A stretch of DNA of 64,000 bases from Candidatus Thermoflexus tengchongensis (GTDB lineage Bacteria; Chloroflexota; Anaerolineae; Thermoflexales; Thermoflexaceae), in NCBI GenBank assembly GCA_016842085.1, contig JAEVEX010000044.1:1-64000 (forward strand), read 5' to 3'. This document shows, piece by piece, positions 11,858 through 32,823 of the stretch. The number at the start of each line of letters is the position of its first letter. Positions within the stretch are counted from its first letter, which is position 1. Both the position numbers and the translations under genes were made by a program. The notes beneath the pieces were generated by a model that was not told the DNA's origin, made no database searches, and saw only the letters and a list, made by a program, of their open reading frames with translations.

Positions 11858-12334
11858 TTATCGAACGATCAGGGTGCCTTTCATCCCCGCCTCGTAGTGG
11901 CCGGGGACGAAACAACCGATCTCCCACTCGCCCTTGCGGTCTGGCGGCACGGTGAAGGTGAGGGTGGCCTTTCCATCCGGCTCCAGCTCCACCTCGAACC
12001 CGTGTTCCTCCTCTCGTTCAACCTTCCCCTTCTCCACCGTGTAGGTCACCTCGATCCCGGCGAAGAAATCCTGGCCGAAGCCCTCCATCTTCCCTTCGTG
12101 CTCGTGCTGCTTCACCTCACGGCCGACCATGAATTCATGTTCCACCCGGCCTTTGTTGATCAGCTGGAGGGTCACCGTTTGCCCCGCGGGAAGCTCCAGA
12201 CGGGCCGGTTTGAAGTAAAACTCCCCCAGCTCAACCGCGATCATGGTCGCCCCACTGGTTGAGGGAGCGGCGCAGGCGCTGAGCAATAAGGCGAGTCCGA
12301 TTAGAAGAACCTCCAGCCGCATCCTGAACCGCAT
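11858..12334 (-). CDS. Cupredoxin lipoprotein (type 1 copper)
   Basis: A 158-residue small blue-copper protein anchored outside the cell. A lipobox (L-L-L-S-A-C, Cys21) ends the signal peptide. The four type 1 ligands are all visible: His66 in V-E-H-E-F-M-V-G, then Cys141, His146 and Met151 in C-F-V-P-G-H-Y-E-A-G-M. Between them is an unusually long acidic, His-rich insert (residues 72-115). AAAGGAGG precedes the ATG. A close paralogue sits at 24594-25079 beside the oxidase operon. It lies downstream of the CuA/cytochrome c gene at 12463, so a mobile electron carrier for that module is a fair inference. Confidence 0.9.
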   Translation of the reverse strand: MRFRMRLEVLLIGLALLLSACAAPSTSGATMIAVELGEFYFKPARLELPAGQTVTLQLINKGRVEHEFMVGREVKQHEHEGKMEGFGQDFFAGIEVTYTVEKGKVEREEEHGFEVELEPDGKATLTFTVPPDRKGEWEIGCFVPGHYEAGMKGTLIVR

Positions 12335-12462: not shown

Positions 12463-13134
12463 TTAAGGACGTGAAGGCTCCCGGACCAGCTCGCGAAGGA
12501 ACCGAATCAGGGCCTCAATCTCCGCTTCGGATAACCGCTCCCCCCAGGCGGGCATCGCGGTCCCGGGTCGCCCCTGCCGGATGATCTCGCGGAGCGTTGC
12601 GTCATCCATTTGAGGAACCCGGCCGGTTGCGTTCAGGGCGGGGCCCACGCGCCCCTCCCCCTGAGGCCCGTGGCAGGCCGCACAATAGGTCTGGAACAGA
12701 AAAGCGCCGTCCGAAGCCGCTTCGATCTCCGGAACCGGTCCACCGCCGGGAGGCCGAACAACCAGCTCGCCGATCATCTCCCCATGGCGCGGGCTGCAGA
12801 CCACGGTGCAGATCACCCGATAGCGCCCGGGCCGCTCGGGGCGCAACCGGATCTCCCGCACCTTCCCGGGCTCCACTGTCACCGAGATCCCCAACCCGGG
12901 AATGCTCAAGCCGTGAACGACATCCGCGCTGGTGACCCTCAGGCGGATCTCTTCCCCCGCTCGAACTTCCAGCGTGGGAGGTTGCCACCCCCCGGACTCC
13001 GGGATCCGGGCAATCCACCAGCGCGCGGAGCCGTTCCAGGCTCGATCCGCTGTCCAGAGGCCAAGCGGCAACCCGACCAGAACGCTTAGCACCAACCCCC
13101 GGGCTAGCCATTCCCACCCCTTCATGGCTTCCAT
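12463..13134 (-). CDS. CuA domain fused to cytochrome c, membrane-anchored
   Basis: A 223-residue protein that starts at 13134 (AGGAGGAGGG upstream), has one N-terminal helix (about 11-28), then a cupredoxin domain with a full dinuclear CuA site: His74 in D-V-V-H-G-L, Cys109, Cys113, His117 and Met120 in C-T-V-V-C-S-P-R-H-G-E-M. A class I cytochrome c follows, with C-A-A-C-H at 151-155 and axial Met194 in G-T-A-M-P-A-W. This looks like a caa3-type oxidase subunit II but has only one membrane helix, and no subunit I lies beside it. The polyferredoxin gene ends 11 bases before it, so one transcript is likely. Nitrous-oxide reductase is excluded by lack of the CuZ propeller. Confidence 0.85.
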   Translation of the reverse strand: MEAMKGWEWLARGLVLSVLVGLPLGLWTADRAWNGSARWWIARIPESGGWQPPTLEVRAGEEIRLRVTSADVVHGLSIPGLGISVTVEPGKVREIRLRPERPGRYRVICTVVCSPRHGEMIGELVVRPPGGGPVPEIEAASDGAFLFQTYCAACHGPQGEGRVGPALNATGRVPQMDDATLREIIRQGRPGTAMPAWGERLSEAEIEALIRFLRELVREPSRP

Positions 13135-13145
13135 ATCCCTCCTCC

Positions 13146-14564
13146 TCACCCCAGGTAGAGGCGCTGGAACAGCAACACGATCAAGGTCATGAAGCTGGCG
13201 ATCGGCAGGAGCGCGCGCCGGGCCTTCGCCGCATCCTCCAGATTCTGCTGGGCGATCCGGAAAGCCAGTCCGATGGAGACCGCCAGGCCCAGCCACAGGA
13301 AGGGAAGCTGCAGGAGCGGAACCAGCTCGGGCATATACGGGGTCCAGGGGTGGGATGCCGTGCCCAGCAGATCCCACCCCCGCCCCAGGGGATCGGAGAG
13401 GAGGGGGATCGCATACGAGATGTTGACCAGGACGAAGGAGAGGGTAAAGGCGATCCAGCCGGTCAGCCCCAGCGGGACCAGGGCGTAGGCCAGCTCGACA
13501 AAGAGGCGCCGAAGCGGAATCTCCGCCCGTGCGATCCATCGGGCGAGGGCCACCGCGATCAGGAACACGCCGGGAAGACCGATGAGGTTCAACCCGAGGA
13601 AACCGGCGGCGTAGAGGGCAAACCCGGCCGGATCGCTGAGATTGGCCCATTCCTTCAGGAATCCCCAGGGGCCAGTATAAACGGCCGAGTAGATCAGGGC
13701 GCAGCTCAGCATGATGAAGGCCTTGTAAGCCTCATCCAGGCTCCGCCCCTTCCACCCTGGAGCGCGCGCGAGCAGCAGATCCTGTCCGAAGGGCCGCAGG
13801 AAGATCCCCACGTTCTCCTTCGGACAGGCCTTCAGGCACTCTGTGCACAGGCCGCAGTCGATGTTCCGCCACAGGTTCCCCGGATAGGCCATCCAGGGAC
13901 ATGGATAGCCCTTCGCGTTCCCCCGCAGGCAATCTTTCTCTTTATGGGTCACGCAGACCTGAGGATCCTTCACCCGAAGCTCCAGCGGGGCGACCATGGC
14001 GTAGAGCCCGATGAAGCCGCCCACCGGACACACATAGCGGCAGAAGACCCGTCGCTCGAAGAGGAGGGAGAGAAGGAGGGCCAGCCCGATGAAGAGGGTC
14101 AGCACGATCCCCGTGGCCAGCGGACGGGTCAGGATGATGGCGCTGAAGAGGGCAACCGCGAGGAAAGTTCCGTTCTGGAGCCAGATGTTGCGAAGAGCCC
14201 GAGGCCAGGATAAGCCCAGGGTGAACGGTCGCCCCGGGCGCCGGGCGACGATAGCCAGCCGCTGGAGCCACTCCCCAGGGGCAGGGATCGGACACATGGC
14301 GCACCAGATGCGGCCCGCGAGAGGGATCAGGAGGACGATGAGAGCTGCCCACCAGACGATCCAGACGAAGATGATGGCGAAATTGCGGTTCCCTACTGGG
14401 GTGCCGAGGAAGGCGGCCGCCAACACCAGCACGAAGACGGCCAGGTTCGGCAGGATCAACATGAACTGGAAGGCCCGATGCTTCACCAGCCGTCGCAGAG
14501 GCGACCAGCGGGTGAGCTCCAGCCTCGGATAAACAAACGCGCGCGCCATGCCGCGAACCACCAT
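13146..14564 (-). CDS. NapH/NosR/CcoG-like polyferredoxin membrane protein
   Basis: A 472-residue integral membrane protein with about ten hydrophobic helices. Two C-x2-C-P / C-x3-C-P motifs follow membrane segments (Cys88 and Cys91 in W-C-A-M-C-P-I-P; Cys175 and Cys179 in C-R-Y-V-C-P-V-G-G), as in NapH and NosR. A ferredoxin loop C-G-L-C-T-E-C-L-K-A-C-P (237-248) and further cysteines at 204, 212 and 222 could hold Fe-S clusters. Such proteins move electrons between the quinone pool and periplasmic copper enzymes. GGGAGG precedes the ATG. The ATG directly abuts the stop of the CuA gene upstream. Its partner reductase is not in the window. Confidence 0.8.
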   Translation of the reverse strand: MVVRGMARAFVYPRLELTRWSPLRRLVKHRAFQFMLILPNLAVFVLVLAAAFLGTPVGNRNFAIIFVWIVWWAALIVLLIPLAGRIWCAMCPIPAPGEWLQRLAIVARRPGRPFTLGLSWPRALRNIWLQNGTFLAVALFSAIILTRPLATGIVLTLFIGLALLLSLLFERRVFCRYVCPVGGFIGLYAMVAPLELRVKDPQVCVTHKEKDCLRGNAKGYPCPWMAYPGNLWRNIDCGLCTECLKACPKENVGIFLRPFGQDLLLARAPGWKGRSLDEAYKAFIMLSCALIYSAVYTGPWGFLKEWANLSDPAGFALYAAGFLGLNLIGLPGVFLIAVALARWIARAEIPLRRLFVELAYALVPLGLTGWIAFTLSFVLVNISYAIPLLSDPLGRGWDLLGTASHPWTPYMPELVPLLQLPFLWLGLAVSIGLAFRIAQQNLEDAAKARRALLPIASFMTLIVLLFQRLYLG

Positions 14565-15068
14565 TCAGGCCTCCCTTTTGAGCCACCAGAATCGACCCAC
14601 CACGGCCAGGGCCAGGAAAATCGTGCCCAGGGCGGAACCGTAGAAGGGGAGGTTCGGTGTCACCACGAGCTCGCCGATCATGAACGGATGCAAGGGGCCG
14701 CAGGTCTCCGAGCACCGGAAGCGGAACTTCCCTGGCCGGATGGCGATGAACTCGATGGTCACTTCCTCACCGGGCTGCACGATCCGGTTAATGCCGTATC
14801 CGTCCAGATAGAACCCGTGAGCGGTATCAGCAGCGCGCAGGTGGAGGACTACCCGTTCGCCCCAGCGCACCTCGATCCGGCCCCCCAGGGCATGGCGCGT
14901 GTGGGCCTCGCCTGGCTGGAGGGGATCATAGTGGAAGGCCTGGCTCAGCAGCTCGATCTCCCGCACGACCGGGGTCCTGCCCGGTGTGAGGCTGAGGGCG
15001 AGGCCCACCACAGGGGCGATGAAGCCCAGCAAACCGATCCCGCTGACCAGAAACCACGTTCCGCGCAT
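14565..15068 (-). CDS. Stand-alone CuA protein (COX2-like), two membrane helices
   Basis: A 167-residue protein starting MRGTWFLVSGIGLLG. It has helices at about 6-26 and 142-161, and the periplasmic cupredoxin domain between them. The CuA ligands are complete: His84 in D-T-A-H-G-F-Y, then Cys119, Cys123, His127 and Met130 in C-S-E-T-C-G-P-L-H-P-F-M, with the bridging Glu121 of oxidase subunits II. Helix order (N- and C-terminal) differs from normal COX2, where two helices precede the domain. Starts at 15104 and a GTG at 15131 are in frame, but none has a strong ribosome site. It is first in a tight three-gene set with the polyferredoxin and CuA-cytochrome c proteins. Confidence 0.82.
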   Translation of the reverse strand: MRGTWFLVSGIGLLGFIAPVVGLALSLTPGRTPVVREIELLSQAFHYDPLQPGEAHTRHALGGRIEVRWGERVVLHLRAADTAHGFYLDGYGINRIVQPGEEVTIEFIAIRPGKFRFRCSETCGPLHPFMIGELVVTPNLPFYGSALGTIFLALAVVGRFWWLKREA

Positions 15069-15317
15069 GCGGACCCCCGGGCAACGCTCCCCCCAGGTGT
15101 TCATCGGAAGGAGCGCTGGAATCCATCCCACCTCACTTTATGCGGAAGCGGGGGGGAGAGCGGATCAGCCGGAAGGGAGGATTTTCAGAAGGGAGAGCGG
15201 GGGATTTTTTTCACCCTGGTCCTCCCCCCGCATGCAGGAGCCCGGGGAAGGGAGATCGTCCTTCTCATCCCTTGGGGGGAGGGCCCGGCCGGCTCCAGGT
15301 GGGGAGACAGAGGGACT

Positions 15318-15974
15318 TCAATCGGGGGCGATCAAGCCCCGCCGCAGGGCATAGGCCACCAGCTCCGAGCGGCGGTGAAGGCCCAGCTTCTCATAGAGAT
15401 GCTGGCGATGGGTCTTCACAGTGCTCAGGCTGAGGCCCAGGCGCTCGGCGATCTGCCGATTCGTGAGTCCCTGGGCGATCAGGCGGAGGATGGTTTGCTC
15501 CCGGGGTGTCAGGGGGATCTCCTCCAGGAAGGGCTGAGGCTGCCGGTTCAGGTAATCCTGAACCAGGGATGCCGCCAGCTTCGGGGGCAGGTAGACGCCG
15601 CCTTCGCAGACCGCGTGGATTGCGTAGAGCAGCTCATCGCTGTCTGCCCCTTTGAGAACATAACCAGCCGCTCCGGCCCGAAGCGCCTCGAAGAAGAAGG
15701 CTTCCTCCTCATGCATGGTGAGGATCAGCACCCGGATCCCCGGCCATGCCCGAACGATCCGACGGGTGACTTCCAGCCCATTGAGATCCGGCAGGGTGAT
15801 GTCCAGCAACACCAGATCCGGCTGGCGGGCCTCCACCAGAGCCAGCGCCTCCTGGCCGGTCCCCGCCTGCCCAATGACCCGGATGTCCGCTTCATCCTCC
15901 AGCAGAGCGATCAGGCCCTGCCGCACAATGGTGTGATCATCCACAATCAGGAGACGGATCGGTCGTTCCTTCAT
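15318..15974 (-). CDS. NarL/LuxR-family response regulator
   Basis: A 218-residue two-component regulator starting MKERPIRLLIVDDH with AGGAGGT upstream. The receiver has the acidic pair V-D-D-H, phospho-acceptor Asp58 in L-L-D-I-T and the later Lys in Y-V-L-K-G. The C-terminal LuxR helix-turn-helix reads L-T-P-R-E-Q-T-I-L-R and T-N-R-Q-I-A-E-R-L-G-L-S. Its start lies inside the end of the histidine kinase gene (38-base overlap), so they are a cognate pair. The CuA module begins 249 bases downstream and is the nearest plausible target, which is an inference from position. Confidence 0.93.
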   Translation of the reverse strand: MKERPIRLLIVDDHTIVRQGLIALLEDEADIRVIGQAGTGQEALALVEARQPDLVLLDITLPDLNGLEVTRRIVRAWPGIRVLILTMHEEEAFFFEALRAGAAGYVLKGADSDELLYAIHAVCEGGVYLPPKLAASLVQDYLNRQPQPFLEEIPLTPREQTILRLIAQGLTNRQIAERLGLSLSTVKTHRQHLYEKLGLHRRSELVAYALRRGLIAPD

Positions 15975-17874
15975 CGGCGGGCACCTCCTGACGCGCTTCC
16001 ATCGGCCTCGCGGAGGCTGTGAGCCCAACCAGGGACGGCCAGGGGATGCGCACACGGATGGTCGTGCCCTGCCCGGGCTGGCTATTGATCTCCAGCTGGC
16101 CTCCGATAAGGGAGGCACGCTCCCGCATTCCAGCCAGACCCAGGCCCCGTCCTGCGCCTTCCACCGTCACCGCCGTTGGGTCAAACCCCCGGCCGTTGTC
16201 CTGTACCTCCATGATCAGCTCTCCCTCCCTGTGGATCAGGCGAAGCCATACATGGGTGGCCCCACTGTGTCGAGCCACGTTATGCATGGCCTCCTGGGCG
16301 ATGCGGAAGAGGATCAATTCCACCTCGCTGGGCAACCGTTCCGTGATCCCCTCGATTTCCAGGGCGAGGTGGATCCCCAGGGGCTGCAGCAGGGCTTCCG
16401 CCACCCCCCGGAGCGCCGGGATCAGGCCCAGCTGATCCAGCACGCCCGGCCGCAGGGCGCTGATGACCCGCCGCAGATCTTCCATGGCCTGGGCGATCAG
16501 CTCGCGCGTTCGGTGGAGCTGTTCCTGAGCCCATGGGTTGGCCTCGCCCAGAGTTTTCGCCAGGCGATCCAGGCTGAGCTGGACGGCGGTGAGGATCTGC
16601 CCAGCCTCATCGTGCAGCTCCCGGGCCAGTCGGGCGCGCTCCTCCTCCTGCGCGGTCAACAGGCGGCGCAGCAGCTGACGGGTCAGGGCCTCCTGTTGCC
16701 GCAGGGCCTCCGTCCGTTCCGCCACCCGGACCTCCAGGGTTTCGCTCCAGCGGGCCAGCTCCTGGATGTTTTCCAGGAGCCGAAGCCGCATTCGTTCTAG
16801 GGCCTCCGCCATCGCCCCAATCTCTCCCCCTTCGGGAGCCCGAAGCGGGGTGCTCAGATCCCCATTGGCGATCCGCTGGGCTGCCTGGGTTAGCCGATGA
16901 ATCGGACGAACCAGGAGATGCGCGCCCAGAAGGCTGGCCCCCCAGATCCCTCCAAGGGCCAGCAGGCCCAGGAGGGCCAATCCCCAGCGCAGGCGATTGA
17001 TCGGGGCGCTGATCGTATCCAGATCCCCACCGACGGCGACGGCCAGAGGGGCCAGGCGCAAAGGAGCGAAGGCCATGGCGTGGAGATGCCCCGGGGATTC
17101 GTTGGGGAAGCCGGGCTCAACGGGAACGATCCGCACATGGGGCCGGCCCTCTGCGAACGCCTGCCGGTAGAAGCGAGCATGTTCCCCCGGGCTCCCGAAA
17201 GGGATCTGCAGTGTGGAGGCCACCACATTCCCCTGAGGATCGAGGAGCAGCGCGTGGCCGATTCGCCCCAGACGAGCTGAGCGTTGCAGAATTTGCCGAA
17301 CGCGGGCATCCTCCAGGGGCATCCAACCGCCCATGAAGCCCTGCAGCCGTCCATCCGTGCTCTGGACCGGCACGGCCAGGAGGATCACAGGAGCCCCGCT
17401 GGCGGGAAGACGGAAAGGCCGGGAGACGCTCAGCCTCTCTGCCTTCAAGTGCAGGCCGAGCTCAGGGCGCTCGGGGAGCGAAGCGCCAATCGAAAACCCC
17501 GCCGGAGGATAAGCGGCCCGCAGGCGACCTTCCGGATCCAGAAAGACGAGCCCTGCGAATTCAGGGGGTCGCTGCTCATAGGCCCAAGCCAATCGCGCGG
17601 CAAGAAGCGTCTCATCTTCAATCCCCTCCGGAAAGAGCCCATGGGAGAGCTGGCCAAGCTCCTCCCCCGCATGGCGGAGCAGGTCCTCCAGCTCCCCTGC
17701 TGCCATCTCGGCCAGAAGCTGGCGCTCTTCCAGAAGGCGAGCGATGCTTTCCTGGACGGCGCGCTCGCCCAGCGTGGAGAAGACGAAGAAGAGAGCAAGG
17801 AGGCCCAGGCTGAGGCTCAAGGCCAGGCGCGGCCATAATCCAATACGCTGGACGAGCCACTCCCATTTTTTCAT
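15937..17874 (-). CDS. Membrane sensor histidine kinase, HisKA_3 type
   Basis: A 645-residue kinase starting MKKWEWLVQRIG at 17874. One helix at about 15-35 and another near 318-345 enclose a ~280-residue extracytoplasmic sensor of double-Cache type. A HAMP linker (H-R-L-T-Q-A-A-Q-R-I-A-N-G-D) follows, then the dimerisation helix with phospho-acceptor His in L-A-R-E-L-H-D-E-A-G-Q, and the ATPase with N-V-A-R-H-S and D-N-G-R-G-F-D-P. This is the NarX/DegS class. The ATG overlaps the stop of the TusA-rhodanese gene by four bases, and its own 3' end overlaps the regulator. The coupling ties the sensor to sulfur-transfer genes. Confidence 0.93.
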   Translation of the reverse strand: MKKWEWLVQRIGLWPRLALSLSLGLLALFFVFSTLGERAVQESIARLLEERQLLAEMAAGELEDLLRHAGEELGQLSHGLFPEGIEDETLLAARLAWAYEQRPPEFAGLVFLDPEGRLRAAYPPAGFSIGASLPERPELGLHLKAERLSVSRPFRLPASGAPVILLAVPVQSTDGRLQGFMGGWMPLEDARVRQILQRSARLGRIGHALLLDPQGNVVASTLQIPFGSPGEHARFYRQAFAEGRPHVRIVPVEPGFPNESPGHLHAMAFAPLRLAPLAVAVGGDLDTISAPINRLRWGLALLGLLALGGIWGASLLGAHLLVRPIHRLTQAAQRIANGDLSTPLRAPEGGEIGAMAEALERMRLRLLENIQELARWSETLEVRVAERTEALRQQEALTRQLLRRLLTAQEEERARLARELHDEAGQILTAVQLSLDRLAKTLGEANPWAQEQLHRTRELIAQAMEDLRRVISALRPGVLDQLGLIPALRGVAEALLQPLGIHLALEIEGITERLPSEVELILFRIAQEAMHNVARHSGATHVWLRLIHREGELIMEVQDNGRGFDPTAVTVEGAGRGLGLAGMRERASLIGGQLEINSQPGQGTTIRVRIPWPSLVGLTASARPMEARQEVPADEGTTDPSPDCG

Positions 17875-18941
17875 GCTGGGGTTTCCCCTACCACGTAAGG
17901 CAACCCTCGAGAGCGCCAGTCGGACCACGAACCTTTATAGTTTCGAACCCGGGGATAGCCCAGGAGACGCAGGACCCAATAAGTATGGGCGGATCGAGCT
18001 CCGCTTTCACAGTAAACCACAATTTCCTTCTCCGGCCCAATGCCCAGAGCGGCCCATCGGGCCCTCAGAAGATCCGTTCGAAGGAGCCGGGGATAAGGGT
18101 GGAGGTCCAGGGACTCCTCCCACGGGAAGTGCAGAGCGCCAGGAAGATGCCCCTGGATATATTCGGAGCGGGTTCGCACATCCAGGAGGAGGAGATCCGG
18201 GCGGGAGGCGTTCTGCAGGATCCAGTCGGCCGTGGCCAGCCGCGAGGGATCCGGCTGTGCTTGATAACGAGCTGGAGGCAGCAAACGACCCTCCCGCTCC
18301 ACAGGCCCCCCGAGGGTCAGCCAGGCCTGCCATCCTCCTTCCAGGATTGCGACAGAGGCCTGCCCCAGATACTCCAGGAGCCAGGCGGCTAATCCCGCCG
18401 CTGGACCGAAATCGCTGTCCACAATCACCACCGCATCCTCCCGCCGGAGCCCCAAAGCCCCCAGCCGGGTTTCCAGCAGGGAGAGAGATGGTAAGGGCTC
18501 GGGACCCGGCCCGGCAGGTGCAAGAAGGGCCTCCAGATCCAGGCGAATCGCCCCAGGAACGTGTCCGAAAGGATAACCGGAGGCGGCTTCCGGCAATACC
18601 GGACGCACATCCAGGATGCGAAGCATGGGGTCCTTCAGCCGCTGGAGCAACTGCTCCGCGGAGATCAGCCGGGGTGAGGGAGAAGAGGTCTCTCGCGTTC
18701 CCTCCCCCGGCGAGGGGGTTATGGCCTCTTCCCGATAGATCAAGATCCGCCATTCCCCAGGCCTCACCGGTTCGATCCGCCATGCGAAGCCGAGCCGGGC
18801 CGCTTGCGTGGGGATGGTCTCCAGGGCGGGAGGATGATCCGTGTAAACCTCCAGCACCTCGCCAGGAGGGAGGCGTCGCAAGACTTCCACCGTTTTCAAC
18901 ATCGGATAGGGGCAGATCTCCCCTCGGACATCCAGGATCAT
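17871..18941 (-). CDS. TusA-rhodanese-rhodanese fusion sulfurtransferase
   Basis: A 356-residue three-domain protein. Residues 1-70 are a TusA/SirA domain with the sulfur-carrying Cys10 in G-E-I-C-P-Y-P-M. Two rhodanese domains follow. In the first, the active-site position reads V-D-S-D-F-G-P with Asp in place of Cys, so it is probably inactive. The second has Cys311 in Y-C-E-S-G-A-R-S, an intact loop. Single-chain tandem rhodaneses usually keep the active cysteine only in the second domain, as here. It should pass persulfide sulfur from rhodanese to TusA. It lies downstream of a YeeE-type transporter and is coupled by ATGA to the histidine kinase. Confidence 0.88.
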   Translation of the reverse strand: MILDVRGEICPYPMLKTVEVLRRLPPGEVLEVYTDHPPALETIPTQAARLGFAWRIEPVRPGEWRILIYREEAITPSPGEGTRETSSPSPRLISAEQLLQRLKDPMLRILDVRPVLPEAASGYPFGHVPGAIRLDLEALLAPAGPGPEPLPSLSLLETRLGALGLRREDAVVIVDSDFGPAAGLAAWLLEYLGQASVAILEGGWQAWLTLGGPVEREGRLLPPARYQAQPDPSRLATADWILQNASRPDLLLLDVRTRSEYIQGHLPGALHFPWEESLDLHPYPRLLRTDLLRARWAALGIGPEKEIVVYCESGARSAHTYWVLRLLGYPRVRNYKGSWSDWRSRGLPYVVGETPA

Positions 18942-19148
18942 CGGACCTCCCAATCCGGAAGGATTACGCCATTGCCTTCCCCCAAAGGCATCCGTGGCAC
19001 CTTCGGCCTGATGCTTTGCCTATTGAGGATCTGAGGTTTTGGGATGCTGAGCGGGGGCCTTGGACCCCCGCCCAGCCCTCGAAACATCATGGGGCGGGGT
19101 GATCCGACCCTTTCGGCAAGGGCCTGATCAGCCCGCGCTCTGCATGCC

Positions 19149-19189: not shown

Positions 19190-20398
19190 TCAAATCAGCC
19201 GCCGCACTATCCAGGCGCCTATCCATGAGCCACCTGCCAGGCCGACGGCGAAGAGCCAGCCGCTGACCGCCAGAGAGGGGATGGCAGAGAAGAACCCCCC
19301 GATGTTGCATCCCATTGCGATGCGGGCGCCGTAGCCCAGCAGGAAGCCGCCAACCAGGGCCTGAAGATAACGGCCCGGACGGGCGGTGCGGATCTTGAAT
19401 TCATCGGCCAGCACGGCGGCCAGGAAGGCCCCTGCGATCAGGCCCACATTGAGCAGCGTCCCCGGGCTTGCCCATGGGATATGCTGAAGCAATCCGAACC
19501 CTGGGGCCTTCTCGGCATAGTAAAGCAGGCGATCCGCTGGGTAGCCCAGGAGATAGGCAATCCAGCCAGCCCAGCGGGAGATCTCTGTGGTGATCCCCCA
19601 TGGTTTGTCCCAGAGGAACAGGTAGACATTCAGGACCCCCAGGGTGATGCCGGTGGGGATTGGAGCCCATGGGTGGCGGAAAAGGCGTTCCCAGGCCCGC
19701 TGGAGATGTTCCGCCAAGGATCGCGCAGGGGCCAGGGTGGGGGCTGGCCGGACAACGACACCGCCGCGGGTTTCCCAGGCCAGCACCGCCAGATAGAAAA
19801 GGGCCAGCCCGAACAGGTTGATCAGCACCGCGCCGCCCCACCCCAGCGCCTGAGGCAACCAGAGCCGGGGGGCGGGCGCGATCACCACCTGCCACCACCA
19901 TGGCCACTGGAGGGCCACAGTGAACATCCCGATCATCGCTCCGATCAGTGTGAACAACGAAGCAACGTAACCCTCACCGATTCGATAGAGCATCCCGGAG
20001 GCGCAGCCGCCGCCCAACACCATCCCGATGCCGAAGAGCAGACCCCCGAGAAAGGTGGCCAGGCTGACCGGCGTCACGTTTCCAATGGGCCGGCTGAGAT
20101 CTGGAACCGTTCGATATGCCAGCAGAGCGAAGCCGATGGTGGCAACCGCCATGCCAGCAATGATCCCTTTCACCACCCGGCCATCCCGCAAGAGGTAAAG
20201 ATCCCGAAACGCGGAGGCGAAGCAAAAGCGACCTCGCTGCACGGCGACTCCCAGGCTGAGCCCAAACAGCCAGAAGACCGCGAGGCGGGGAGCCCATAAC
20301 GCGTAGAGTCCGGCGATCCCCAGGACCACCGCCAGGCTGAGCGCCTTCCACAGCCACTGGGGCGCTACTGCAGGAAGAGCCGGAGACAGGGTGCGCAT
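19190..20398 (-). CDS. YeeE/YedE (TsuA)-family sulfur transporter
   Basis: A 402-residue membrane protein with about ten helices arranged as two related halves. Conserved cysteine motifs of the thiosulfate-transporter family are present: R-G-R-F-C-F-A-S-A in the first half, L-G-G-G-C-A-S-G-M soon after, and M-G-C-N-I-G-G-F-F near the C-terminus. In this family cysteines relay thiosulfate through a narrow pore. GGAAGGAGGG precedes the ATG. The gene is followed on the same strand by the TusA fusion, the usual partner of YeeE, so thiosulfate uptake linked to intracellular sulfur transfer is likely. The substrate could also be another small sulfur compound. Confidence 0.9.
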   Translation of the reverse strand: MRTLSPALPAVAPQWLWKALSLAVVLGIAGLYALWAPRLAVFWLFGLSLGVAVQRGRFCFASAFRDLYLLRDGRVVKGIIAGMAVATIGFALLAYRTVPDLSRPIGNVTPVSLATFLGGLLFGIGMVLGGGCASGMLYRIGEGYVASLFTLIGAMIGMFTVALQWPWWWQVVIAPAPRLWLPQALGWGGAVLINLFGLALFYLAVLAWETRGGVVVRPAPTLAPARSLAEHLQRAWERLFRHPWAPIPTGITLGVLNVYLFLWDKPWGITTEISRWAGWIAYLLGYPADRLLYYAEKAPGFGLLQHIPWASPGTLLNVGLIAGAFLAAVLADEFKIRTARPGRYLQALVGGFLLGYGARIAMGCNIGGFFSAIPSLAVSGWLFAVGLAGGSWIGAWIVRRLI

Positions 20399-21093: not shown

Positions 21094-21660
21094 TCAACGG
21101 ACGAGGTAGAGCGCGGGATAGAAGAAAACCCAGACGATGTCCACGAAGTGCCAGTATTTCACCGCCCCTTCCACACCCCACATGCGTCCGGGACCGAAAG
21201 CCCCCCGTCGGCCCAGCCGGTAAATCAGGGAGAGGATCACCACCCCGCTGAACACATGGGCCGCATGCATGCCCGTCATGGTGAAGAAAACGGTGCCGTA
21301 TCCAGAGGAGGGAGGGGCGAAATGCATCGCCTCCGGCCATTCCACGGCCACCACCCCGATCAGGAACAGGATCCCCAGGATGATGGTGGCCAGAAGGTTC
21401 CGGAGGAAGGTGGAGGTCTTGCCGTGGGCGATGGCGATCTCCGCCCGATTGGCAGTGAAGCTGCTGGTGAGCAGGATCAGCGTGATGGCCAGCCCCAGCG
21501 CCTGGTTCAGCTCCGCGGGCCGATAAGTCCCCTGGAGGATGAAGCGGGCGCTCAGGAGGGTTGCGAAGATCATGCTCTCAGAGAGCAGGAACAGCCACAG
21601 CCCGAAGCGAGGGACACGCAGCGGCACGGCGATCGCATGGCCTTCCCGGAGAGCACTCAT
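21094..21660 (-). CDS. ctaE: Cytochrome c oxidase subunit III
   Basis: A 188-residue integral membrane protein of the five-helix short type. It shows the subunit III marks: W-L-F-L-L-S-E-S-M-I-F-A near the start, T-G-M-H-A-A-H-V in the middle and K-Y-W-H-F-V-D-I-V-W at the C-terminus. The first two helices of seven-helix forms are absent, as is usual in prokaryotic A-type oxidases. Its ATG overlaps the subunit IV stop (21657-21660, ATGA). It is last in the operon subunit II, I, IV, III. Subunit III stabilises the oxidase and binds lipid. Confidence 0.92.
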   Translation of the reverse strand: MSALREGHAIAVPLRVPRFGLWLFLLSESMIFATLLSARFILQGTYRPAELNQALGLAITLILLTSSFTANRAEIAIAHGKTSTFLRNLLATIILGILFLIGVVAVEWPEAMHFAPPSSGYGTVFFTMTGMHAAHVFSGVVILSLIYRLGRRGAFGPGRMWGVEGAVKYWHFVDIVWVFFYPALYLVR

Positions 21661-21854
21661 TCTTCCTCCTCCCAGAGCTGATGGAGGTGCATATAGAACC
21701 AGAGGATCAGGCCGGCTTTCGCCACGCCCAGAACCGCGAGAGCGGGGAGGGGGCGAGGCAGGGCATTAGCGGCCGCGATCTCCATGGCGGTGAGCCCAAG
21801 CAATCCCCCGAACACCCACATCCCTATCCGGAAAGGTGAAGGCATTCCACCCAT
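21657..21854 (-). CDS. ctaF: Cytochrome c oxidase subunit IV (CtaF-like)
   Basis: A 65-residue protein starting MGGMPSPFRIG with GGGAGG upstream at 21854. Two hydrophobic helices (about 7-22 and 32-52) are followed by W-F-Y-M-H-L, the W-x-x-M-H-L motif found in small fourth subunits of bacterial oxidases. An ATG at 21845 is a slightly shorter option. The 137 bases between subunit I and this gene contain no other gene. It overlaps subunit III by four bases. Confidence 0.85.
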   Translation of the reverse strand: MGGMPSPFRIGMWVFGGLLGLTAMEIAAANALPRPLPALAVLGVAKAGLILWFYMHLHQLWEEEE

Positions 21855-21991
21855 CCTCTCCCTCCCTCGATGTTTCACCGCAAACGATATGGCCTCCCCC
21901 TCCCAAGGGCCCGTAGAACCCCAGGAGGGAATCCAGAAGGTCGCCTCTCCAAACCTCCCGGGCTTCATCGGGAAGGAGATTCCCTCTCTCC

Positions 21992-23809
21992 CTATTCTCC
22001 TTCTCCGCCTGCCACAGCGATCCAGGCGTATGGGGAGCCCGGGACGCCATAGCCATAAGGATCCCCAATCACCCGCGGCAGGATCGGGAAGTTCTCCACC
22101 GGAGGCGGCGAGGTCGTCTGCCACTCCAGGGTACGGGCCCGCCAGGGGTTATCCGCCGCCTGAGGGCCCCGCGCCCAGGCATAGGCGAGGTGGGCGATCA
22201 GAAAGACAAAGCTGGCCCCCAGCACGAAGGCGCTCATGGAAACCAGCATGTTCCCGCCGGCCAGATAGGAGGGGTAATCCGCGACGCGGCGATTCATCCC
22301 ATACAGGCCGAGGCCGAACATCGGCAGGAAGGTGGCCTGGAAGGCCAGGAAGAACCACAGGGCGTGGATCCGGCCCAGGCGCTCGTTATACATCCGCCCG
22401 CTGATCTTAGGGAACCAGTAGTAAAGGCCAGCAACCAGCGCGAAGATCATCCCGCCCAGAATCGTGTAATGGAAGTGACCCACCACGAAGTAGGTATCCT
22501 GAAGGTGAAGATCGGTGGGAACATCCGCCAGGAAGATGCCGGTTACCCCTCCGATGAGGAAGTTGGCGAGGAACGCCAGGGCCACCAGCATGGGGGTTCG
22601 CAGCCACAGGCGGCCCTGCCACAGGGTTCCCAGGGCCGAGAGGAAGATCAGGCCGGTGGGCACGGAGATCAATTCAGTGGTAGCCATAAAAGGAGCATGG
22701 AGCCATGAGGGCATGCCACTGGTGAACATGTGGTGGGCCCAGACCAGGAAGCTGAGTCCCACGATCCCGAAAAACCCGCCCACGGCCCAGCGATAAGCGA
22801 ACAGGGGCTTGCGGGCGAAGTGGGGCAGGATCTCCAGGATGACCCCGAAGGCGGGAATGATCATAATGTAGACAGCCGGGTGGGAGTAGAACCAGAACAC
22901 GTGCTGATACAGCAAGGGGTCGCCTCCCCGGGCTGGGTCGAAAAAGCCCGTTCCCAGGATCCGATCGAGGAGGACCATCAGCAGGGCCACGGCCACGAAC
23001 TGGGTGGCGATCAGGCTCAGGATGGAGGTGGCGAAGATCGACCAAACGAAAATCGGAAGCCGACTCCAGGTCATGCCCGGTGCCCGCAGGAAGGCGATGG
23101 TGGTGAGAAAGTTGAGCCCGCCCAGGATCGAGGAGAGACCTACGGTGATGAACGCCAGGTTGAAGAGCACCTGGCCGCTGGCGTTGGCCTCACTGAGGGG
23201 CGGATAAGCGGTCCAGCCACTGTCGAACCCACCCAGCCAGGGTGTACTGAGCAGGGCCAGGGCGGCCGGCGGCACCAGCCAGTAGCTCAGGGCGTTGAGG
23301 CGGGGGAAGGCCATATCCCGGGCCCCGATCATCAGGGGCACCAGGTAGTTCCCCAACCCCCCGACGATCGTAGCCACGGCCACCGCAATCATCATGATCC
23401 CATGCAAGCTCATCACCGTGTTATATTGATTGCGGCTGAACAGCTGGAGGCCGGGTCGCATCAGCTCGAGCCGCATCAGCATGGCCAGCAGCCCCGCGAC
23501 CAGCATCAACCCCAGGAAGGTCACCAGATACTGAACGCCGATCACTTTATGATCTGTGGTGAAGCGAAAATAACGCACCCAGCTCCGGTCCTCCTCCTGG
23601 TGAACCGGCCATCCCAGCCACTCCCGTACCCAGACTTCCCACATCCCCACGCCCAGCAACCAGCCGATCAGGCCCAGGCCATACCCGACCGCCAAAGCGG
23701 GCTCCGCCGTTAACCCCTGTCCGCGGAGGGCCGCTATCATACCGGCTCCAATCAGATAGCCGAGCCCGCCCCCCAGCAATCCCCGTCCAATGGGAAAGAA
23801 CGCCCGCAT
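21992..23809 (-). CDS. ctaD: Haem-copper oxidase subunit I, A2 type
   Basis: A 605-residue catalytic subunit with the six metal-binding histidines: low-spin haem ligands in S-L-H-G-I-M-M and H-F-H-Y, CuB/cross-linked His-Tyr in S-H-P-A-V-Y, the pair W-A-H-H-M-F-T, and haem a3 ligand in V-V-G-H-F-H. In place of the D-channel glutamate (G-H-P-E-V-Y) it reads F-Y-S-H-P-A-V-Y, the YS motif that defines A2-type enzymes such as the Thermus and Rhodothermus caa3 oxidases. The K-channel segment A-T-T-E-L-I-S is present. AGGAGG precedes the ATG. It begins with extra N-terminal helices before the core D-H-K-V-I-G motif. It should reduce oxygen to water and pump protons. Confidence 0.95.
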   Translation of the reverse strand: MRAFFPIGRGLLGGGLGYLIGAGMIAALRGQGLTAEPALAVGYGLGLIGWLLGVGMWEVWVREWLGWPVHQEEDRSWVRYFRFTTDHKVIGVQYLVTFLGLMLVAGLLAMLMRLELMRPGLQLFSRNQYNTVMSLHGIMMIAVAVATIVGGLGNYLVPLMIGARDMAFPRLNALSYWLVPPAALALLSTPWLGGFDSGWTAYPPLSEANASGQVLFNLAFITVGLSSILGGLNFLTTIAFLRAPGMTWSRLPIFVWSIFATSILSLIATQFVAVALLMVLLDRILGTGFFDPARGGDPLLYQHVFWFYSHPAVYIMIIPAFGVILEILPHFARKPLFAYRWAVGGFFGIVGLSFLVWAHHMFTSGMPSWLHAPFMATTELISVPTGLIFLSALGTLWQGRLWLRTPMLVALAFLANFLIGGVTGIFLADVPTDLHLQDTYFVVGHFHYTILGGMIFALVAGLYYWFPKISGRMYNERLGRIHALWFFLAFQATFLPMFGLGLYGMNRRVADYPSYLAGGNMLVSMSAFVLGASFVFLIAHLAYAWARGPQAADNPWRARTLEWQTTSPPPVENFPILPRVIGDPYGYGVPGSPYAWIAVAGGEGE

Positions 23810-23833
23810 GGGGACCTCCTGCCGACATGCCGT

Positions 23834-24586
23834 TCATTGCTTGCGCTGCTGATCCACCCAGGCTGCAAATTGATCCGCGGGGACCACCTCCACAGTCGCC
23901 GTCATCGCTGCATGGCCGGTCCCGCACAGCTCCGCGCACTGCACCCGCAGGGTGGGCTCCACCGCCGTGCGACCCGGCCGGCTGGGCGTGAGGACCAGGA
24001 GGGTGGTCCGCCCGGGGACCGCGTCGATCTTCAACCGAAAGGCCGGGATCCAGAACGAATGAACCACATCCCGGGAGGTGATCTCGAAGCGGACCGGGCG
24101 GCCCATAGGGAGGACCAAGCGGTCCTTCACTTGGATTTGATATTGAGGATAAGTGAATAACCAGGACCACTGGCGGGCCTGGACCTGCACGACCAGCGTT
24201 CCTTCCCCATCGGCCGCGGCGGAGCCGGAGAAGGGGCCCATCCACCCCAATTCCATCAGCCCCCGGAGACCAGGCTGGATCACGAGGGAGAGGGCGAGGA
24301 GGGAGGTGACCGCCAGCCAGGCCAGTGCCCCGGGAGTGTGGCTGAACACCGGAGGCCCATCCTCGGGAGGATCCCCGGCCGCCCGGAAACGCAACAGGCT
24401 GTAGAACAGCACGCTGAGGACAAAGGTGAAAACCGGCGTCCCGACGATCAGAAGATATCGGAACGCTTCATCCACCACCCGAGCTTCGGAAGCCATCGCT
24501 GGGGGAAACGGAATCTGGAGGGCCACCATCTCCCCCAGCAAGGTCAGGATCAACCACAGCCCGAACACCCGAAGGAGATCCCGCAT
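23834..24586 (-). CDS. ctaC: Cytochrome c oxidase subunit II
   Basis: A 250-residue protein with two N-terminal helices (about 43-65 and 88-105) and a periplasmic cupredoxin domain. CuA ligands are His176 in V-V-H-S-F-W-I-P, Cys217, Cys221, His225 and Met228 in C-A-E-L-C-G-T-G-H-A-A-M. W-S-W-L-F-T-Y-P marks the aromatic electron-entry region. No cytochrome c is fused, so the donor must be separate. The cupredoxin encoded seven bases upstream is the obvious candidate. The start at 24586 has GAGGGG upstream. Confidence 0.94.
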   Translation of the reverse strand: MRDLLRVFGLWLILTLLGEMVALQIPFPPAMASEARVVDEAFRYLLIVGTPVFTFVLSVLFYSLLRFRAAGDPPEDGPPVFSHTPGALAWLAVTSLLALSLVIQPGLRGLMELGWMGPFSGSAAADGEGTLVVQVQARQWSWLFTYPQYQIQVKDRLVLPMGRPVRFEITSRDVVHSFWIPAFRLKIDAVPGRTTLLVLTPSRPGRTAVEPTLRVQCAELCGTGHAAMTATVEVVPADQFAAWVDQQRKQ

Positions 24587-24593
24587 TGGCCCC

Positions 24594-25079
24594 TCACCTT
24601 TCCACAATGAACTTGCCCTTCATCCCCTCCTGATAATGCACGCCGTCTTCTTCAAAACAACCCATCTCCCACTCCCCAACGCGATCGGTGGGCACTGTGA
24701 AAACCACAGTGGCGGTGCCTCCGGGCTCCAACGCCACCATGAAGCCGGCATGCTCCTCCTCTTCCTCCTGCTTCAGCTTTTCGCCGCTCACCTGAGGGTG
24801 AAGGCCGGCGAAAAAGTCTTCGTGATATCCGGCGGGCTTGCCTTCCATTTCCATCACCATCCGGCCGATCATCAGCTCATGGTCCTTTTTGCCCGCGTTC
24901 ACCAGAACCAGGCGAACCTCCTGGCCGGCTTTCACCCGGATCGTATCGGGCTGAAACTTGTATTCCGTCAAGGTGATCCGGATTTCCCCTGCGCCGGGGC
25001 CTGATGCTGGCCCCTGCGGTTGTCCGCATGCCGCCAGCAACAAGAGCCCGCCCATCCATACCCACCCCCAGCGGTTCAT
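24594..25079 (-). CDS. Cupredoxin lipoprotein of the oxidase operon
   Basis: A 161-residue blue-copper lipoprotein, paralogue of the one at 11858. The lipobox L-L-L-A-A-C gives Cys18. Type 1 ligands are His67 in D-H-E-L-M-I-G, then Cys141, His148 and Met153 in C-F-E-E-D-G-V-H-Y-Q-E-G-M. The loop from Cys to His is two residues longer than in the paralogue, which may shift its potential. It shares the long acidic insert containing H-E-D-F-F-A-G. As first gene of the oxidase operon it probably donates electrons to CuA of subunit II, which is an inference from position. Confidence 0.9.
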   Translation of the reverse strand: MNRWGWVWMGGLLLLAACGQPQGPASGPGAGEIRITLTEYKFQPDTIRVKAGQEVRLVLVNAGKKDHELMIGRMVMEMEGKPAGYHEDFFAGLHPQVSGEKLKQEEEEEHAGFMVALEPGGTATVVFTVPTDRVGEWEMGCFEEDGVHYQEGMKGKFIVER

Positions 25080-31468: not shown

Positions 31469-32035
31469 TCAGGCCTTCCGGGCCGGCTTCCCCAGGATCT
31501 TCTTCCCGGTGTCCACCTCGATGATCAGGTTCGGATCCGGAACCGGCAACGGATCGCCCTGCGGATCCGTCTGGGCCACGATGCGACCGCTGGCGTCCTT
31601 CAGGTAAATCACAAAGCGATCCAGATCGCGGGGAGCCGGCCCCTCGATGTAGGTGCCATCCAGCTGGAACTTGGAGCCGTGACACGGGCACTCGAAGCGG
31701 AAGTTGCTGGGAACCCACTTGTAAAGGCAACCCAGGTGGGTGCAGACCTTATAAAGGGCGAGGATCCCCCGCTCGGTGTGGACCAGCCAGAGCCGGGCAT
31801 CGGGATACTCCCGGGGGCCTTCCCCAGCGCGGGGCAGGATCGCCCCCGCCGTCCCGAGCCGGAAGATGCCACCGAATTCCCCCGCGCGGAACCGGGGGAG
31901 AGCGAACAGCAGCGCCACCCCGCCGCTCTCCGCCATGAAGAGGGCCATGGAGGCCGCCCAGACATACGCCAGGAACTCCCGCCGGGTGATGCCCGGCGCC
32001 GCTACCGTCGGAATCGCCTGCGCCTCCGCCGTCAT
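31469..32035 (-). CDS. Rieske 2Fe-2S protein, Tat-exported
   Basis: A 188-residue protein with a twin-arginine start (T-R-R-E-F-L-A) and a membrane helix at about 22-46, then the Rieske domain. Cluster boxes are C-T-H-L-G-C (98-103) and C-P-C-H-G-S (116-121), which supply two Cys and two His ligands plus the disulfide. AGGAGGAG precedes the ATG at 32035. No cytochrome b gene lies next to it. It heads a set Rieske, lipoprotein, CuA-like, CcdA-like. A role in an alternative quinol-oxidising or copper complex is inferred. Confidence 0.9.
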   Translation of the reverse strand: MTAEAQAIPTVAAPGITRREFLAYVWAASMALFMAESGGVALLFALPRFRAGEFGGIFRLGTAGAILPRAGEGPREYPDARLWLVHTERGILALYKVCTHLGCLYKWVPSNFRFECPCHGSKFQLDGTYIEGPAPRDLDRFVIYLKDASGRIVAQTDPQGDPLPVPDPNLIIEVDTGKKILGKPARKA

Positions 32036-32094
32036 GCTTTCTCCTCCTGGCTGGAACCGAGGGCTCGCATGGCTCATCCAGGGATTTGGGATAA

Positions 32095-32823
32095 TCAACC
32101 GGATCCCCGAACAACAGGATCCCTCACTGCCTCATCAGAGGGCTGAGGGAGGCCACGCTCCATGGCCAGTGCAACCGGCGTTCCCACAACCGCGGCTGGA
32201 TGCCGGGCGACGATGCATTTCACAATGCCGAAGAATGCGGTGTGCACGGCCTCGATCTCCAAACCGGCCCGCAGGACGTTCTCCACCGTCCGCCGGTTGA
32301 TGTTCGCCCCCGTCAGACGCACCGCAATGGGATTAAGCAGATCAAAGAGTTTTCCCAGCCACAGGCTCTCCGGGCGTACGTGCTCCAGGAGCAGGATTTT
32401 CCCTCCAGGCTTGCAGACGCGCCGCAGCTCGCTCAACCCCAGCACCGGATTGGGCACCGAGCAGAAGACGAACGTGGCGACAACACAATCGAAAGAACCA
32501 TCCGGGAAGGCGAGCGCTTGCGCATCCATCTGCAGGAGTTCGACGGCTATACCCTGGTGGATGGCCCGGCGCCGCGCCTGCTCCAGCATCCTCCCGCTCA
32601 AATCCACCGCCGTGACCCGTGCGTCTTTGGGGTAGTATGGGAAATTCTTGCCCGTGCCCACTCCCACTTCGAGCACGCGCCCCCCGGGCACCTGCGCCCA
32701 GAGCTGCTTCCGCCACCGCCGGAAGGCCGCCTGCTCCATCGGGCTTTCGATAAGATCGTAAAGCCGGGCATTGCGGTCATACCGTGCCCTCGTCGCCGCA
32801 GTCGCCACAGGATCCCTCTTCAT
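32095..32823 (-). CDS. SAM-dependent methyltransferase (class I)
   Basis: A 242-residue soluble protein with the class I methyltransferase core: V-L-E-V-G-V-G-T-G-K-N (SAM loop), T-A-V-D-L-S, D-A-Q-A-L-A-F-P-D-G-S-F-D and L-R-R-V-C-K-P-G-G-K-I-L-L-L-E-H. The opening Y-D-R-N-A-R-L-Y-D and the late N-I-N-R-R-T-V-E-N-V resemble phospholipid or small-molecule (UbiE-like) methyltransferases; members also occur near arsenic and mercury genes. The ribosome site is weak. The gene follows the rhodanese lipoprotein by six bases. Substrate unknown. Confidence 0.82.
   Translation of the reverse strand: MKRDPVATAATRARYDRNARLYDLIESPMEQAAFRRWRKQLWAQVPGGRVLEVGVGTGKNFPYYPKDARVTAVDLSGRMLEQARRRAIHQGIAVELLQMDAQALAFPDGSFDCVVATFVFCSVPNPVLGLSELRRVCKPGGKILLLEHVRPESLWLGKLFDLLNPIAVRLTGANINRRTVENVLRAGLEIEAVHTAFFGIVKCIVARHPAAVVGTPVALAMERGLPQPSDEAVRDPVVRGSG

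Follow-up and report, generated by a model that had tools for sequence, protein, structure and literature searches.

Three adjacent genes in a 64,000-nucleotide stretch of Candidatus Thermoflexus tengchongensis DNA (hereafter the window) form a real and widely conserved gene set, the triad, which is undescribed in the open-access literature searched. They encode a stand-alone CuA protein (CuA1), a NapH-like iron-sulfur membrane protein that we named NapHx in this analysis, and a fusion of a second CuA domain to cytochrome c (CuA2-cytochrome c). We read the triad as a modular transmembrane electron-transfer unit that would lead electrons from the inner side of the membrane or the quinone pool through [4Fe-4S] clusters to CuA and a periplasmic acceptor, and we put the probability of this reading at roughly 0.6. 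Its gene content, ligands, conservation and recurrent partners are supported directly. Searches of the open-access literature for CuA together with NapH, polyferredoxin or nosZ returned no description of the triad, and no biochemistry was found for any of its members.

The three genes and their proteins

The triad occupies the following positions in the window:

14565..15131, minus strand: CuA1, stand-alone CuA protein; Pfam COX2, 29.0 bits (cut-off 22 bits)
13146..14564, minus strand: NapHx, nine-helix NapH-like membrane polyferredoxin; Pfam Fer4_5
12463..13134, minus strand: CuA2-cytochrome c fusion; Pfam COX2, Cupredoxin_1 and Cytochrome_CBB3

An earlier note on this DNA had proposed three adjacent genes here, and all three open reading frames are present at that place on the minus strand, with 0 bp between CuA1 and NapHx and 11 bp between NapHx and CuA2-cytochrome c. 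CuA1 has an alternative in-frame ATG near 15070 that is possibly the true start and agrees with position 15068 of the earlier note; CuA2-cytochrome c has an AGGAGG ribosome-binding site and an ATG at 13134.

The same note had ascribed a full set of CuA ligands to both copper proteins, which reading and alignment bear out: the His...Cys-x3-Cys-x3-His-x2-Met set is present in both. The CuA1 ligands H105, C140, C144, H148 and M151 (CSETCGPLHPFM) are invariant in 23/23 aligned sequences; among those of CuA2 (CTVVCSPRHGEM), H75, C110, C114 and H118 are invariant and M121 is kept in >90% of the alignment. CuA2-cytochrome c consists of an N-terminal anchor, the CuA domain and one c-type haem domain with a single haem motif, CAACH. 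CuA1 is predicted to be a CuA cupredoxin between two transmembrane helices, the odd topology that had been remarked upon before, and a natural CuA1::NapHx fusion (locus L110) models alike, as helix-CuA-helix followed by NapHx (pLDDT 83). The CuA domain of this model matches the CuA structures of Thermus thermophilus ba3 oxidase and of NosZ, and the model offers an explanation of the C-terminal helix of CuA1, which would bring the chain back to the cytoplasm.

NapHx has nine predicted transmembrane helices and a fairly confident structure model (pLDDT 84), with no relatives in the PDB by sequence or by fold. Across 33 sequences, 11 cysteines are invariant (C88, C91, C175, C179, C204, C212, C222, C237, C240, C243 and C247), as are the membrane motifs CxxCP and CxxxCP. 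Position 207 is His in 26/33 and Cys in 7/33, the behavior expected of a cluster ligand; the eleven cysteines and one more ligand would suffice for two predicted [4Fe-4S] clusters in addition to the CxxCP and CxxxCP motifs. Lys and Arg lie mostly in the predicted cytoplasmic loops (7, 7, 16, 4 and 3 residues, vs. 0-1 outside), which places the clusters, by prediction, on the inner side. Conserved loops with GPWG and SDPxGxGWxLxGT are predicted on the periplasmic side. The NCBIfam NapH/MauN model (TIGR02163) matches NapHx at 28.4 bits (E = 1e-6), below its curated cut-off of 213 bits; judged by this score NapHx is related to the NapH family without being a member, and the paired membrane Cys motifs and the two [4Fe-4S] motifs of NapH/MauN are present in it. 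The periplasmic FMN-binding domain of NosR and RdhC is absent from NapHx, for which Pfam gives Fer4_5 only, and its NCBIfam matches at E = 0.001 include no CcoG family, of which the library may hold no model. The triad has no membrane-spanning conserved haem-binding His pair, so that the route from cytoplasmic iron-sulfur clusters to periplasmic CuA is unaccounted for, a point that counts against a conduit.

Distribution, partner enzymes and surroundings

We scanned species genomes with NapHx and obtained 76 named loci from several phyla. A CuA1 motif (CxxxCGxxH[PA][FY]M) lies just upstream of, or is fused to, NapHx in 74/76, which goes beyond chance; the other two loci are near contig ends. 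An intact CuA2 motif lies downstream in 65/76. In 53 loci CuA2 carries a fused haem c domain, and in 6 CuA1 and NapHx form a single protein. Among the 11 loci lacking the CuA2 motif, three stop inside or at the end of NapHx (L080, L114 and L120), two encode CuA2-like proteins without the Met ligand at its usual place (L110 and L115), and one has a partial CuA2-like match (L052). The order CuA1-NapHx-CuA2 is found in Chloroflexota, Acidobacteriota, Bacillota, Omnitrophota, Spirochaetota, Actinomycetota and Methylomirabilota; the conservation that had been looked for within Chloroflexota thus extends beyond that phylum. More distant NapHx homologues are without CuA.

CuA has been described chiefly in haem-copper oxidases and nitrous oxide reductase, and the triad belongs to neither: haem-copper subunit I (COX1) was detected in the flanks of none of the 76 loci, NosZ models match the triad with their CuA part alone, and the nosZ of the source genome is a separate gene. 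The absence of an adjoining subunit I or nosZ, claimed in the earlier note, is correct for the operon and does not extend to the genome, which elsewhere has haem-copper oxidases and nosZ. Had relatives always carried nosZ or subunit I next to the set, it would have been a known complex with a displaced part; nosZ is beside only 5/76 loci. A displaced oxidase subunit was accordingly rejected, given the flanks and the separate inheritance of the cox operon described below.

Where a partner enzyme is recognizable, it differs among loci. In the five loci with nosZ (L068, L089, L096, L099 and L100) the order is CuA1-NapHx-CuA2-nosZ, in most of them with nosB and nosD next; NosZ scores above the curated cut-off in 3/3 tested. 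In three loci (L109, L112 and L113) the triad directly follows genes for a DMSO-reductase type II-like enzyme with iron-sulfur, delta and EB_dh-like haem subunits; in three others (L049, L086 and L110) a CuA1::NapHx fusion is preceded by genes for a reductive dehalogenase (RdhA) and a small membrane protein. For the Mo-reductase neighbors, family models were run on example loci, and three Mo-reductase loci are complete. A more divergent homologue (L131) combines CuA, NapHx and NirK, the last above its cut-off. Directly before the CuA1::NapHx fusion of L108 (3672-4619) and L115 (1-918) is a YVTN-repeat propeller in which each blade has roughly one His; its match to the clade III L-NosZ model is far below cut-off, and it could be a nitrous oxide reductase-like protein whose CuA is on a separate chain. 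Apparent fusions of a YVTN propeller with a multicopper oxidase are seen a few kilobases from the triad in L087 (3582-5735) and L091 (3603-5759). Most Anaerolineae loci have no recognizable terminal enzyme near the triad. A PCYCGC lipoprotein stands beside most of their triads (e.g., L074, 279-869), frequently with the cytochrome c form, and many have a DUF1573-like protein, named by sequence reading rather than by a model.

The NapHx tree came from a quick search and has some long branches, so its groupings are indications. The window lies outside the main cytochrome c-fused clades and clusters instead with the forms that have a dehalogenase, nosZ or the propeller (a branch with SH-aLRT 92 that is not starred), which suggests that its shorter cytochrome fusion may have a separate origin. 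The link with nosZ requires at least three origins on starred branches, and the Mo-reductase form is one clade.

The surroundings of the triad in the window are as follows:

11858..12334, minus strand: cupredoxin lipoprotein after the triad; Pfam Cupredoxin_1; 89% identical and in the same place in Ca. Thermoflexus japonica (L048)
15318..15974, minus strand: LuxR-type response regulator directly upstream of the triad; Pfam Response_reg and GerE; kept in T. japonica
15937..17928, minus strand: sensor histidine kinase (open reading frame; kinase type inferred from sequence) overlapping the regulator gene; 95% identical in T. japonica
17871..18953, minus strand: TusA-rhodanese-rhodanese protein upstream of the sensor genes; Pfam TusA and Rhodanese; kept in T. 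japonica
19190..20398, minus strand: YeeE/YedE-type sulfur transporter; Pfam Sulf_transp; 96% identical in T. japonica
21094-24607, minus strand: complete aa3-type oxidase operon (COX2, COX1, COX3, COX4-like), 6 kb from the triad; 21094-25079 with its own cupredoxin

The window lies on contig C88 of the source genome (G000). Its closest named relative is T. japonica, whose NapHx is 96% identical and which has the same succession of genes: YeeE, TusA-rhodanese, sensor kinase, response regulator, CuA1, NapHx, CuA2-cytochrome c, cupredoxin. The cupredoxin gene that had been seen after the triad is present; its product is a possible electron shuttle, soluble or anchored, and shares 49% identity with the one encoded next to the cox operon. 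The response regulator is the probable regulator of the triad. Farther out, the window holds the aa3-type oxidase operon, that second cupredoxin, a Rieske protein (31469-32098, minus strand) with no cytochrome b gene recognized beside it, and a P-type ATPase. The source genome also has two near-identical COX1-family copies on contigs C94 and C46 (L016, 7231-9477; L017, 93-2340), each with a 172-aa CuA-motif protein, possibly a CuA-type NO reductase.

Proposed electron route and competing explanations

We infer the direction of flow, the order of centers, the donor and the Thermoflexus acceptor from genomes. NapHx would take up electrons on the inner side or out of the quinone pool by way of its CxxCP and CxxxCP motifs, which the scheme places at the membrane edge, and two [4Fe-4S] clusters facing the cytoplasm; it would hand them to CuA1, whose copper domain would be held in the periplasm by a helix anchor at each end. 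CuA1 would then reduce CuA2, and CuA2 would reduce the periplasmic acceptor encoded in the particular operon, be it NosZ, NirK, a Mo-reductase or a reductive dehalogenase. In Thermoflexus and most Anaerolineae, electrons would go from CuA2 through the fused cytochrome c to soluble carriers, e.g., the cupredoxin next door.

Of the quinol-to-copper conduit that the earlier note envisaged, the conduit to copper is the best reading and no description of it was found in the open-access literature searched, whereas quinol is a candidate donor. NapH-type proteins are held to oxidize menaquinol (PMC3475470, PMC5928378). A GltD-like flavoprotein is encoded right after NapHx in L052, its identical copy L168 and L066, and a related GltD-like protein is close by, mostly adjacent, in 11 distant NapHx homologues without CuA (L158-L167 and L169); Fer4_20 and Pyr_redox_2 were confirmed on two examples. 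Judging by these neighbors, some members at least would have a donor that is linked to NAD(P)H on the cytoplasmic side, and the pairing, taken with the predicted cytoplasmic position of the clusters, favors a cytoplasmic donor in the GltD-paired homologues at least. The 11 distant homologues come from other Chloroflexota classes and are often beside two-component genes.

To relate the triad to possible acceptors, we tabulated Anaerolineae genomes, taking a NapHx identity of about 41% or more as an orthologue; the genome sets were transcribed by hand, and their counts may differ by a few. nosZ was weakly linked with the orthologue (21/66 orthologue-bearing genomes vs. 62/330 others, P = 0.02), COX1 was not significantly so (52/66 vs. 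226/330, P = 0.11), and cytochrome b was commoner with it (61/66 vs. 207/326), all three comparisons being uncorrected for relatedness. Dependence on COX1 is thus unsupported. In one genome (G014, 96% complete) that has a NapHx orthologue, neither nosZ nor COX1 scored above the thresholds applied. We prefer the modular reading because no single acceptor fits all members. A separate group of NapH-like paralogues (L124-L130, about 30% identity), several beside YtkA-like, Sco or PCuAC genes, shows its own association with nosZ in the class (30/72 vs. 53/324, P = 9e-6, uncorrected for relatedness).

CcoG is itself a polyferredoxin, and the main rival, which we disfavor as rather improbable, is that the triad serves copper maturation: NapHx would reduce Cu(II) to Cu(I) in the manner of CcoG/FixG, and the CuA proteins would be copper carriers or clients. 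CuA-less NapHx homologues of about 30% identity do lie beside YtkA-like, Sco and PCuAC genes, CopA-like ATPases and PCuAC are found near several triads, and CcoG is regarded as a cupric reductase in published papers. However, the triad retains every CuA ligand, CuA2 is fused to haem c in the 53 loci counted above, and the dehalogenase and Mo-reductase partners are not known copper enzymes. Sco and PCuAC chaperones do not keep the full CuA ligand set.

Flow in the opposite direction, in which a periplasmic oxidation, perhaps of a sulfur compound, would reduce cytochrome c and CuA, and NapHx would pass electrons to quinone or NAD(P), is in our judgment unlikely. The TusA-rhodanese and YeeE genes kept with the triad in T. 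japonica would fit it, as would the genes for a secreted rhodanese and a DsbD-like protein ahead of the triad in L137, but sulfur genes occur at few other loci and the recognizable partner enzymes are reductases. CuA is, moreover, usually far too oxidizing to reduce menaquinone or NAD.

We hold it about equally unlikely that the Thermoflexus triad simply serves the genome's nosZ, or the aa3 oxidase nearby, as a displaced electron donor. The contig of the triad also carries a clade II nosZ cluster (with nosB, nosD and nosY), some 200 kb away; no NapH/NosR-like polyferredoxin was recognized in the 18 kb around that cluster (read from ORF starts), nosZ adjacency recurs at other triad loci, and the cox operon 6 kb off has the 49% identical cupredoxin. 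Distribution within the genus argues otherwise. Among nine Thermoflexus genomes searched, the triad is present in two and nosZ in seven, so nosZ there is independent of the triad; the CoxA type of the window is present in the source genome (G000) and G159 and the triad in G000 and G102, which implies that the cox operon and the triad were inherited separately. The G014 genome likewise has the orthologue without either enzyme. An obligate NosZ donor was rejected for Thermoflexus and most Anaerolineae from these distributions of nosZ and NapHx. T. hugenholtzii carries nosDYLZ, yet N2O consumption was not observed in culture (PMC8129789).

That the triad replaces the bc complex as quinol:cytochrome c reductase is very improbable and was rejected. 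In its favor are the cytochrome c domain of CuA2 and the haem-copper oxidases of the genome; against it, the source genome also encodes cytochrome b and Rieske proteins, and cytochrome b is enriched, as noted, in orthologue-bearing genomes.

If the modular electron-transfer reading is right, a CuA pair wired to a membrane iron-sulfur protein would be a new general electron-supply route for unrelated reductases. More tentatively, and with the odds somewhat against it, the triad may be a third natural setting of CuA: an interchangeable wire in which a polyferredoxin reduces a CuA pair. In some lineages the electrons would come from NAD(P)H by way of a GltD-like flavoprotein, bypassing the quinone pool, and the wire would have been joined to NosZ, NirK, Mo-reductases and reductive dehalogenases. 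The triad bears on how clade II NosZ is supplied with electrons where NosR and NosGH are both absent, and on the electron path to periplasmic reductive dehalogenases. For annotation, it gives a recognizable gene set whose members would otherwise be labelled one by one, as 4Fe-4S binding proteins or as oxidase subunit II-like.

Comparison with known systems

The triad resembles NapGH and NosGH in that a membrane iron-sulfur protein combines paired Cys motifs with two [4Fe-4S] motifs and is genetically linked to a periplasmic reductase (PMC3475470, PMC5928378). NapH has four transmembrane helices, whereas nine are predicted in NapHx; the first membrane motif is CxxxCP in NapH and CxxCP in NapHx; and one predicted cluster ligand of NapHx is His or Cys. 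NapH has NapG as its partner, but the triad operon has no NapG gene and CuA is the periplasmic carrier; by analogy the triad may work like NapGH or NosGH with CuA in place of NapG. NosR and RdhC (PceC) similarly have a Cys-motif membrane module linked to NosZ or a dehalogenase (PMC5928378), but NapHx has no match to their FMN-binding domain, and a CuA protein takes the periplasmic position.

On the copper side, the triad shares the full ligand set with the CuA of ba3-type subunit II and of NosZ, both of whose folds the CuA1 domain model of L110 matches. It differs from them in that its CuA is not attached to a haem-copper subunit I or a NosZ propeller and that CuA1 has an extra C-terminal helix. 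CuA2-cytochrome c is like caa3-type subunit II in having CuA followed by one c-type haem domain, but the triad operon is without subunit I or III, the anchor and sequence differ, and the CoxB model gives CuA2-cytochrome c 52.7 of 147.7 bits. Finally, NapHx is like CcoG/RdxA/FixG a polyferredoxin linked to copper proteins, and unlike them it is linked to non-copper reductases too.
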